Origin: Paucibacter sp. Y2R2-4
GTDB lineage: Bacteria > Pseudomonadota > Gammaproteobacteria > Burkholderiales > Burkholderiaceae_C
DNA length: 64,000 nt
Reading direction: 5' to 3'
Assembly (NCBI RefSeq): GCF_025717535.1
Contig: NZ_JAJIRO010000005.1
Location: forward strand, 434,001 to 498,000
The notes under the pieces: model-generated
The model's database searches: none
The model's input: only the letters and a program-made list of their open reading frames with translations
Told to the model about the DNA's origin: nothing
Made by a program: the position numbers and the translations under genes
Part shown: piece by piece, positions 36,309 through 39,015 of the stretch
How the letters are laid out: each line of letters opens with the position of its first letter
Position numbering within the stretch: position 1 is the stretch's first letter

Positions 36309-37862
36309 ATGATGCAAAGACGTGATCTGCTCAAAGCCGGATTCTCTGGGCTCGCCGGGCTGGGCAGCCTGAGTCTGATTCAAGAAGCGCTGGCCCTCGG
36401 CGTGGCTTCGCCAAGCTTCAAGACCCTGGCGCCGGAGTTGGCGCCCTTGCAGGGCTTCACTGGCAATGAAGTCTTCGATGCCCGCGACTTGCGCATCGAA
36501 GGTCGCCTGCCACAGGGCTTGAAAGGGGTCTATTACCGGAATGGCCCGGGCGTGATGAGCCGCGGCCAAGAGCGCTACAAGCATTGGTTTGACGGCGACG
36601 GTTTGGTGCAGGCTTGGACTTTTGGTGAAGGGCGCGTGCATCACAAGGCCCGCTTTGTGCAGACCAAGAAGCTGCGCCTTGAAACAGCGGCCGGTCGTTT
36701 CATGGTGCCGGGCTTTGGCACCAGCTTTGCCGACCAAGACGCGCGCGCCGCCGTGCGCAGCGCTGATGATGTGAACACCGCCAATACCAGCGTGATGCTC
36801 AATCAAGGCCGCTTGTATGCGCTGTGGGAGGGCGGCAGCGCCTATGAGTTGGACCCGCTCAGCCTGACCACCAAGGGGCCTCGGACGTGGTCGGCGGACA
36901 TGGCCGGCATGCCTTTTTCGGCCCACCCCAAGGTGGAAGCCGATGGCACGGTCTGGAACTTTGGCAGCCAGGCCGGGCACATGGCGATCTACCAAATCTC
37001 TTCCCAGGGCCAGCTACGCAACAGCCGGGTTTTCAAGATGCCGGTGGACTCGGCCATGGTGCATGACTTTGCCGTGTCACAGCGCTTCTTGGTCTTTTTG
37101 CTTGCGCCCTTGACCCTGGACATGGAGGCGGTTCGTGCGGGCTCCAGCATGCTCGACGCCATGCGCTGGCAGGCACGTGAGGCCTGCACCGTGCTGGTGG
37201 TTGATAAATCAGATTTGGACCGACGCTGGGTTCTTGAGATGCCGGCCGCCATGGTTTTTCACTTTGGCAACGCCTGGGATGATGGTTCGCAGATCCATCT
37301 GGACTATGTGGAGGCCCAGGCTTTCCCCCTGATCAATGAGGCCCTGGGTGACATCATGAAAGGCACGCGGCCCAAGGACAAAGTGTCCAGTCCGCGCTTT
37401 TTGCGCATTACTTTGGGTGCCGGAGCACTTGGATCGGGGCAAGGCTCGGGCGTCAATGCCGGTCGCATCGAGCTGAGCTCACGTGATGAGTCGGTGGAGT
37501 TTCCAGTGGTGGACCCGCGTGTGGTGGCCCAGCGCTACCGGCATGTCTACTACCCGACTGCCATCGACAACGGAGAGCGCTGGGGCTTCAACGGCTTGAT
37601 GCACCTGGACATCGAGACCGGCCGCCGCGAGCGCTTTTCTTTTGGTGATGAGGTGGTGCTGGAAGAGCATGTGTTGGTGCCCAAACCGGGCAGCAGCCAG
37701 GAGGGCGAGGGCTGGCTTTTGGGCCTGGGCTATGACCTCCAAGCCAAGCGCTCCTTTGCCTCGGTGTTTGATGCCCAGGCGCTCAGCGCCGGTCCCTTGG
37801 CGCGGGTGTGGCTGCCTTACTGGGTGACCTACGGCTTTCACGGCAAGTTCTATCCCAGCTGA
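36309..37862 (+). CDS. carotenoid oxygenase (RPE65 family) with Tat-type leader
   Basis: The 517-residue protein is a non-haem iron dioxygenase that cleaves double bonds of carotenoids or related stilbenes. The four iron-ligand His are all present: H206 (SAHPK), H252 (MVHDFA), H318 (VFHFGNAWDD) and H511 (YGFHGKFYPS). The start QRRDLLKAGFSG with a following hydrophobic stretch is a twin-arginine export signal, so the enzyme should fold in the cytoplasm with its iron and work in the periplasm. Carotenoid or apocarotenoid cleavage is the best guess. It is co-transcribed with the DUF2141 gene; no carotenoid synthesis genes are in the window. Confidence 0.9.
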   Translation: MMQRRDLLKAGFSGLAGLGSLSLIQEALALGVASPSFKTLAPELAPLQGFTGNEVFDARDLRIEGRLPQGLKGVYYRNGPGVMSRGQERYKHWFDGDGLVQAWTFGEGRVHHKARFVQTKKLRLETAAGRFMVPGFGTSFADQDARAAVRSADDVNTANTSVMLNQGRLYALWEGGSAYELDPLSLTTKGPRTWSADMAGMPFSAHPKVEADGTVWNFGSQAGHMAIYQISSQGQLRNSRVFKMPVDSAMVHDFAVSQRFLVFLLAPLTLDMEAVRAGSSMLDAMRWQAREACTVLVVDKSDLDRRWVLEMPAAMVFHFGNAWDDGSQIHLDYVEAQAFPLINEALGDIMKGTRPKDKVSSPRFLRITLGAGALGSGQGSGVNAGRIELSSRDESVEFPVVDPRVVAQRYRHVYYPTAIDNGERWGFNGLMHLDIETGRRERFSFGDEVVLEEHVLVPKPGSSQEGEGWLLGLGYDLQAKRSFASVFDAQALSAGPLARVWLPYWVTYGFHGKFYPS

Positions 37863-37889
37863 GCCTTGCGCGCGGCCACGGCGGCGCGC

Positions 37890-38168
37890 TCAGAGTTTTT
37901 GCAAATCCAGGCTGGCGACTTGTTCGCCGGCTTGGGGCCAGCGATGCCGCGCTGACTCGGCTTCTTGCTCCTGTGCCGCAGCCAGTTCAGTCGAGGCCGC
38001 AGGCTCGAAACTGCCGGTGCCCAAGCCCAGCAGGGTGATCAGGGCCAAGCCGGCAATCCAGGCTTGGGGATCGCGGCTCCAATGAAGCAGCTTGGGCAGC
38101 AGATTGGGCAATAGCGCGGGCTGTGGCTTGGCTTGGGGCATCACTTTCCTTGGCTTCGTCGGCATCAT
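37890..38168 (-). CDS. 92-residue single-pass membrane protein under two LexA boxes
   Basis: I do not recognise a family. The 92 residues have a basic, Pro-rich cytoplasmic start (1-35, with KPRK and RDP), one membrane helix at about 36-53 (AWIAGLALITLLGLGTG) and an acidic, Glu/Gln-rich tail outside. AAGGAG (38182-38177) stands eight bases before ATG 38168, a strong ribosome site; a GTG at 38177 would leave no room for it. The promoter region holds two abutting LexA boxes (38218-38249) containing a -35 (TTTGCA) and a -10 (TATACA) 16 bases apart, directed at this gene. Size, topology and control match SOS-induced division inhibitors such as SidA or YneA, without sequence similarity. It converges on the carotenoid oxygenase. 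Confidence 0.72.
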   Translation of the reverse strand: MMPTKPRKVMPQAKPQPALLPNLLPKLLHWSRDPQAWIAGLALITLLGLGTGSFEPAASTELAAAQEQEAESARHRWPQAGEQVASLDLQKL

Positions 38169-38217
38169 CGTCAGCACTCCTTGAGGCTTGCGCGCTCATC
38201 GCGTTGGGATGCGAGAA

Positions 38218-38249
38218 CTGTATAAGCATACAGCTGTAAATGCAAACAG
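38218..38249 (-). promoter_or_regulatory. two abutting LexA operators with embedded promoter
   Basis: CTGTATAAGCATACAG (38218-38233) and CTGTAAATGCAAACAG (38234-38249) are both exact CTGT-N8-ACAG, joined without a gap. Read leftward, TTTGCA (38246-38241) and TATACA (38224-38219) form a -35/-10 pair with a 16-base spacer that lies entirely within them, so two LexA dimers would block polymerase completely. The predicted transcript starts near 38212 and leaves a leader of about 43 bases before ATG 38168. rpiA begins 103 bases to the right, without an equally good promoter in that direction. Confidence 0.85.
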
Positions 38250-38352
38250 TATTTTGATGGCTTGCCGCGAGGGGCCAACACTTCTCTCTGGCCGATAATG
38301 GCGGCCGGCCTCGCTAGGCCGCCCCTCATCCCTCAACAGAAGTCCCTTCAGC

Positions 38353-39015
38353 ATGACCCAAGACGAACTCAAGACCCTGGTTGGCCAAGCCGCTTTGCAA
38401 TACGTGAAGCCTGGCAGCATTGTTGGCGTGGGCACCGGCTCGACCGTGGACAAGTTCATTGACGCCTTGGCCGCCAGCGGCATCAAGGTGGCGGGCGCGG
38501 TGTCCAGTTCGGTGCGTTCGACCGAACGCATGAAGGCCTTGGGCATTCCGGTGCTGGACGCGTCTGAGGTCGAAGACCTGGGTGTTTATATCGACGGCGC
38601 CGATGAGATCGACCATGCCGGCCACATGATCAAGGGCGGCGGTGCTGCCTTGACCCGCGAGAAGATCGTGGCCGATCTGGCCGAGCGCTTCATCTGCATC
38701 GCCGACGAGTCCAAGCTGGTGCAGATGCTGGGCAAGTTCCCGTTGCCCGTGGAAGTGATCCCGATGGCTGCCGCTCAAATCGCACGTGCCTTTGCTGCGC
38801 AAGGCGGCGTGGCCACTTTGCGTGCCGGCGTGGTGACCGACAACGGCTGCCAGATTCTCGACGTGACCGGCCTGCAGGTCCGCGACCCGATGGCTTTTGA
38901 GCGCGAAGTCAATCAATGGCCGGGCGTGGTCACGGTGGGCGTGTTTGCCCGCAACCGCGCCCAGGTTTGCCTGCTCGGTACCTCCGAAGGGGTGAAGACG
39001 CTCAAGTTCGTTTGA
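38353..39015 (+). CDS. rpiA: ribose-5-phosphate isomerase A
   Basis: RpiA interconverts ribose 5-phosphate and ribulose 5-phosphate in the pentose phosphate pathway. The 220-residue protein has the substrate loop [15 protein letters not shown] (about 25-39), [17 protein letters not shown], the catalytic region [17 protein letters not shown] with the acidic pair, and TREKI. These are the signature motifs of the A type. It stands alone between the SOS-type locus and the chemoreceptor. The nearby LexA boxes lie to the left but point away from it. Confidence 0.95.

Follow-up and report, generated by a model that had tools for sequence, protein, structure and literature searches.

Two LexA-type boxes abut without spacing between rpiA and a small leftward reading frame in Paucibacter sp. 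Y2R2-4. This raises the question of which of the two genes the boxes serve and, if it is the small one, what its product would do once DNA damage has released it. We call the whole 64-kb stretch of DNA that was analysed the window, and G000 is the genome that it comes from. The features of the locus are these:

38218..38233, no strand assigned: LexA box nearer the small gene, CTGTATAAGCATACAG, an exact CTGT-N8-ACAG holding TATACA (38224-38219, minus)
38234..38249, no strand assigned: second, abutting LexA box, CTGTAAATGCAAACAG, an exact CTGT-N8-ACAG holding TTTGCA (38246-38241, minus)
37890..38168, minus strand: gene of a 92-residue membrane protein with one helix, ATG at 38168 and stop at 37890; an open frame with an orthologue in L016 and a 15-member family
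38182-38177, minus strand: ribosome-binding site AAGGAG, 8 bases before the ATG at 38168
38007..38060, minus strand: predicted membrane helix, residues 37-54, WIAGLALITLLGLGTGSF, by hydropathy, with the invariant Trp and GxxxG
38353..39015, plus strand: rpiA, the divergent neighbour (PF06026, E 1.7e-55)
36309-37862, tail to tail with the small gene: RPE65-type carotenoid oxygenase (PF03055)

The operator and its setting

An earlier note, made from the letters of this DNA, had described two exact abutting CTGT-N8-ACAG palindromes at 38218-38249 and, to their left, a 92-residue minus-strand frame with AAGGAG at eight bases and a single membrane helix. All of these are present. An alternative start, a GTG three codons upstream, would lengthen the protein to 95 residues. 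An 80-residue frame also overlaps the gene (37987-38229, minus), with its ATG inside the nearer LexA box. It is not conserved, since the ATG found there in L016, the nearest relative of the window's gene, shares the frame of the small protein.

The note had further placed a TTTGCA/TATACA promoter wholly within the boxes. The position stands: read leftward, the hexamers are 16 bp apart and each lies inside a LexA box. As to strength, the hexamers match the sigma-70 consensus weakly, at 4 + 4 of 12 positions by our own count, and a consensus promoter scan listed no promoter at the small-gene operator. The claim that tandem operators imply tight, late induction is unsupported; in Caulobacter, as described in PMC12700426, the order of induction is not predictable from the properties of the LexA box alone.

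The two boxes are the only exact CTGT-N8-ACAG sites in the window. Two or more exact sites per window are not rare in themselves (16 of 100 shuffles, mean 0.70), and the pair is notable despite that rate because the sites abut, stand ahead of a gene and are kept in relatives. The whole genome has 29 exact sites, and a reversed control pattern has 12. Both recA and a pair of adjoining umuD-like and umuC-like genes have exact sites just ahead of them (genes recognised by eye), there is one match to the LexA DNA-binding domain, and lexA itself carries two imperfect boxes 19 bp apart, in register. For these reasons, we take the E. coli-type box to be in use in this genome. Canonical LexA was found in all five genomes tested.

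Other genes stand behind exact LexA-type boxes in this genus. A VOC/glyoxalase-like gene (by eye) lies 43-55 bp behind one at L015 (G000:C3:414911-417926) and L143 (G013), and may be a conserved SOS gene. A long protein that carries LKGRG(S/T)AW close to its beginning is encoded directly behind an exact box, its first start codon coming 1 base after it, in four species of the genus (L005 in G000, L131 in G144, L136 in G013 and L145 in G228). It is possibly the SplB-like gene, a candidate identity suggested by the report in PMC3323433 of such a gene under LexA in beta-Proteobacteria. A peptide-binding-protein-like gene (by eye) follows a box by 48-144 bp at L132 (G144), L142 (G013) and L147 (G228). 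In three congeners that lack the small gene, this box-first look found SOS-type genes and no convincing stand-in one-helix gene among 20 sites, which were mostly chosen for A+T-rich centres and cover G228 in part and G745 not at all.

A family that keeps the box with the gene

Protein and profile searches yield a family of 15 members in at least eight genera of one Burkholderiales family; the members are those in the family-search genomes plus L016, and the count of eight is made without a genus for L016. L016 lies in an uncultured Burkholderiales MAG (CAMFGY010000008.1). Its protein is 66% identical to the window's, and its gene likewise adjoins rpiA and has both abutting boxes. With the window protein as query, 6 of 299 family genomes matched, its own included; the others are G297, of the same genus (E 2.8e-12), and G034, G067, G007 and G206 (E 4.1e-6 to 5.2e-4). 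The G007 protein then added G111 (E 2.0e-6). Profile A2 brought in G084 (E 8.4e-10) and, as weak matches, three genomes from genus g28 (E 9.7e-4 to 4.1e-3). With the g28 rows included, profile A3 added three g127 genomes (E 8.5e-6 to 1.7e-3). These six g28 and g127 members were weak matches at first and were accepted partly on their boxes, so for them the box is not independent evidence. It is independent evidence for the other nine, and eight of those have an exact box. A single g127 query finds a g28 protein unaided (E 6.3e-5; sample of 85 genomes), which speaks for grouping the two short forms together. The same query over the same 85 genomes did not find the long-form proteins of G000, G007, G034, G067 and G084, so what joins the short to the long forms is the profiles, the common Trp/GxxxG helix and the boxes.

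Many matches were dropped before the count of 15 was reached. Rows were dropped in 25 of 36 matching genomes for profile A2 and in 14 of 28 for A3. The dropped rows that were read turned out to be N-termini of TerC-like proteins, segments resembling TRAP transporters, a PEP-CTERM-like tail and chance frames (all by eye), and the A2 rows in G045, G118, G168, G200 and G201 were dropped without a reading of the locus. G101, one of eight genomes matching the G007 protein, was dropped as lying inside a 617-residue frame. A scan of close-relative contigs with the window protein gave two loci, L016 and one of a planctomycetote (L017); the latter was rejected as lying inside a larger reading frame.

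The distribution is patchy. Matches to profile A3 were accepted in 14 of the 299 genomes of the family, from 8 of its 141 genera, and in the window's own genus the gene was found in two genomes of the six seen (in G000 and G297; not in G013, G144, G228 and G745). Order-wide profile searches gave no believable member outside the bacterial family: A1 matched 12 of 399 genomes and A4 matched 2 of 200, and each time the window's own was the only one accepted. Searches by tblastn of plasmids with two members, and of phages with the window protein, gave no match. Such patchiness points to an accessory role or to divergence beyond detection; the members are short and fast-changing, and the profile searches scored only 14-33 candidates per genome.

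The LexA operator and the gene are kept together. In 13 of the 15 members, an exact box lies 31-85 bp before the start codon. The remaining two have one-mismatch boxes: a pair in G206 and, in G218, a single one 189 bp away. Tandem boxes occur in six members. Four have them in a 16-bp register (G000, L016, G297 and G084, with a mismatch in one G297 box), the distal box of the window being exact in L016 and one mismatch off in G297; G111 and G206 have an 18-bp register. An extra one-mismatch site 100 bp above the G067 box is taken as chance. A gene would have an exact box within 100 bp by chance with a probability of roughly 6e-4. Weak profile matches to other proteins served as a control and had an exact box within 400 bp in 0 of 28 and 0 of 16 places, two sets that overlap in part.

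The boxes might instead serve rpiA, whose start on the plus strand is 103 bases from them on the other side, the small frame being an accident. We give this almost no credence. Between the window and L016, 31 of 32 operator bases are identical, against 87 of 111 in the flank towards rpiA and 35 of 49 from box to start. Differences in the frame fall 25/10/36 over the three codon positions, with dN/dS of 0.24. On these grounds, the window's frame is a gene, and it is under purifying selection. In addition, the neighbours vary and the box stays. They are rpiA and the RPE65-type oxygenase in g1 and a PpiD-like protein in G007; the G067 region has an ion channel and a U32 peptidase, the G034 region an FAA hydrolase and the G206 region an AcrB-type pump. 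This reading outside g1 covers those four genomes, and G111, G084, g28 and g127 fall outside it. Eight rpiA loci were scanned. The one with the small gene adjoining, in G297, has boxes, and the seven without it have no exact box, G034 having one distant one-mismatch site. Since the boxes track the small gene across differing neighbours and are absent at all seven of those rpiA loci, they belong to the small gene.

The earlier note had proposed SOS control of a one-pass membrane protein and had pointed to homologues in Burkholderiales, and to LexA boxes conserved before them, as a check. Such homologues exist with the frame conserved, and the boxes are conserved across genera. With purifying selection on the frame and boxes kept in front of it, both the SOS control and the one-pass membrane protein are well supported by the comparison. 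From sequence comparison, we therefore hold it very probable that this is a family of SOS-controlled small membrane proteins.

One helix with a conserved face

Each of the 15 members has a single hydrophobic stretch by hydropathy prediction. Its first residue is an invariant Trp with [DEN][PA]xx ahead of it, and its second half holds an invariant G-x3-G (15 of 15), which gives the family signature [DEN][PA]-x-x-W-[IV] ... G-x3-G. Lys and Arg outnumber Asp and Glu before the helix in 14 of 15 members and equal them in G288; from this excess, an N-in/C-out topology is predicted. Long forms (64-92 residues) have an outer tail of 19-39 residues with acidic or neutral net charge; in short forms (36-59 residues) the chain stops where the helix does, in ...G(V/W)LG. 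Within the C-terminal tails, EQ(V/I)ASLD..KL is common to G000, G686 and G297. The g28 proteins (L077, L087 and L090) have N-tails with a varying number of VG-rich repeats, so that length differs between close species.

The helix is free of charged residues except at its end. Its conservation is periodic at 100 degrees per residue, and a permutation test gives p = 0.003, or 0.001 with the Trp left out. These p values are a guide only, columns having been taken as exchangeable and members recruited by profile. One face, Trp-Ile/Leu-Ala/Gly-Thr-Gly-Leu-Gly, is held, and the opposite face drifts. AlphaFold2, run on the window protein and L016, places a helix at 34-49 in a poor model (pLDDT 58).

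PEP-CTERM tails have a PEP motif, a helix and a C-terminal Arg cluster behind a secreted N-terminal part. It is conceivable that the family is a relic of such an exosortase-sorted tail, or of a TerC N-terminus, standing behind a LexA box by chance. The weak profile matches to TerC-like N-termini (DPQAWIAL.TLTA; named by eye) and to one PEP-CTERM-like tail of the window's genome, VPEPQSWVLMLGGIGLLG (by eye), point that way. Nevertheless, no PEP-CTERM or TerC model matched any member. The members lack the C-terminal Arg cluster, and their basic N-tail gives a topology opposite to that of PEP-CTERM. The TerC-like N-termini, where read far enough, lack the two Gly, and those loci have no exact box. 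We consider a relic highly improbable. The TerC-like proteins (by eye) do start with DPQAWIA, the same entry motif as the helix of the small proteins (L072-L074, L078, L080, L081, L083-L086, L088 and L125-L128); this likeness is likely chance or convergence at the membrane interface.

What would an SOS-controlled protein of this kind do? The first step is strongly supported by the sequence comparison: LexA bound to one box or two that overlap the promoter would repress the gene, and RecA-driven cleavage of LexA after DNA damage would release it. The short leader with its good ribosome site is then predicted to be translated, and the protein to enter the inner membrane with its N-terminus in and its C-terminus out. 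Because of the conserved face Trp-Ile-Ala/Gly-Thr-Gly-Leu-Gly, one side of the helix may pack against a membrane helix of a partner. By analogy only, the partner would belong to the late divisome, most likely the FtsW/FtsI/FtsN group, and septation would pause during repair, as with SidA and YneA. The partner may also be another protein than FtsW, or the helix may pair with itself.

The post of division inhibitor does appear to be open in the window's genome, since SulA (PF03846) has no match anywhere in G000, the one genome tested for it, with a positive E. coli control. SulA has no Pfam match among the family members either. The patchy distribution is odd for a core checkpoint and counts against a division role. 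A division-inhibitor step of the SidA/YneA kind, which the earlier note had also proposed, is plausible from the analogy with SidA, YneA and DidA, although one-helix toxins under LexA (DinQ, TisB) are no less real as a precedent. It is our best guess, and we put it at about an even chance. The fuller proposal is that the family is an SOS division brake of Burkholderiales without SulA, its proteins ranging from 36 to 92 residues, its Trp/GxxxG face pressed on a divisome helix so as to stop septation, and its LexA operator doubled in several lineages into boxes that abut or nearly do; we hold this tentatively, as a little under even.

Two other roles compete with the division brake. In one, the protein would be an SOS-induced membrane adaptor for a different partner, such as a protease, a transporter or an envelope enzyme, with neither division nor depolarisation involved. 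The conserved helix face would suit this, the long forms have C-terminal tails with EQ(V/I)ASLD..KL in common among three members, and patchiness suits an accessory role. However, the loci of G007, G034, G067 and G206 show no common neighbour hinting at such a partner, and the precedents SidA, DidA and YneA act on division. We regard an adaptor as possible, if on the unlikely side.

In the other, the protein would be an SOS-induced peptide of the DinQ/TisB type that lowers membrane potential or ATP, and so slows growth or makes persisters, rather than being aimed at the divisome. LexA control, the one helix and the very short forms ending at the helix would fit, as would DinQ itself, whose promoter has two LexA operators and which depolarises the membrane according to PMC3567139. 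A single conserved GxxxG face on a helix free of charge but for its end suits partner binding better than a pore, however. The 31-85 bp between box and ATG in 13 of 15 members leave little room for type I antisense control. No Rfam family scored above its gathering score in 37300-38900, a search that would miss an undescribed antisense RNA, and no toxin family model in the libraries searched matched a member. We judge this type of peptide unlikely.

Comparison with known SOS membrane proteins

The family matches nothing in the collections searched. Among Pfam, NCBIfam and PHROGs, no family model matched members better than E 0.01; hits to PF10945, NF040718, GPP34, NF003715, NF038002 and two PHROGs were to single members at E 0.01-0.05 and were ignored. 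A PDB profile search gave no match to the family. In the open-licence PMC literature, we found no paper describing it, with hypA and hypB set aside as known by description, and no paper naming an SOS division inhibitor of beta-proteobacteria. The likeness of hypA and hypB is that they are hypothetical proteins of beta-Proteobacteria with predicted LexA control. They come from a comparative study of LexA regulons in those beta-Proteobacteria with several chromosomes, to which it confines hypA, and it confines hypB to Burkholderia (PMC3323433). With the proviso that these two are known by description only, we rate the small proteins as a sequence family that is new among SOS small membrane proteins.

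DinQ and TisB of E. coli resemble the family as LexA-controlled small membrane peptides, and dinQ does so further in its pair of LexA operators (PMC3567139). They are type I toxins, whereas the family has its box close to the start codon and a conserved GxxxG helix face. YneA of Bacillus subtilis and SosA of Staphylococcus aureus are likewise small membrane proteins under SOS control. In YneA, the membrane helix is needed and is enough for localisation to the division site, and the protein interacts with FtsW (PMC13396833). YneA differs in the LysM domain that follows its helix; the family has no Pfam domain above the cut-off.

SidA of Caulobacter shares with the family LexA control and a very small inner-membrane protein. 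It is a 29-residue, SOS-induced division inhibitor that binds FtsW, and its fellow DidA acts on FtsN (PMC4211646). No family model links SidA to the small proteins, and the division block and FtsW binding are SidA's features. The family is compact, has a signature and a LexA operator and includes a form reduced to 36 residues, so that it offers a directly testable candidate, and the short forms would show the minimal active part. Should the proposal prove true, the known SOS small membrane proteins would gain a further sequence family, in support of a repeated origin of such peptides.
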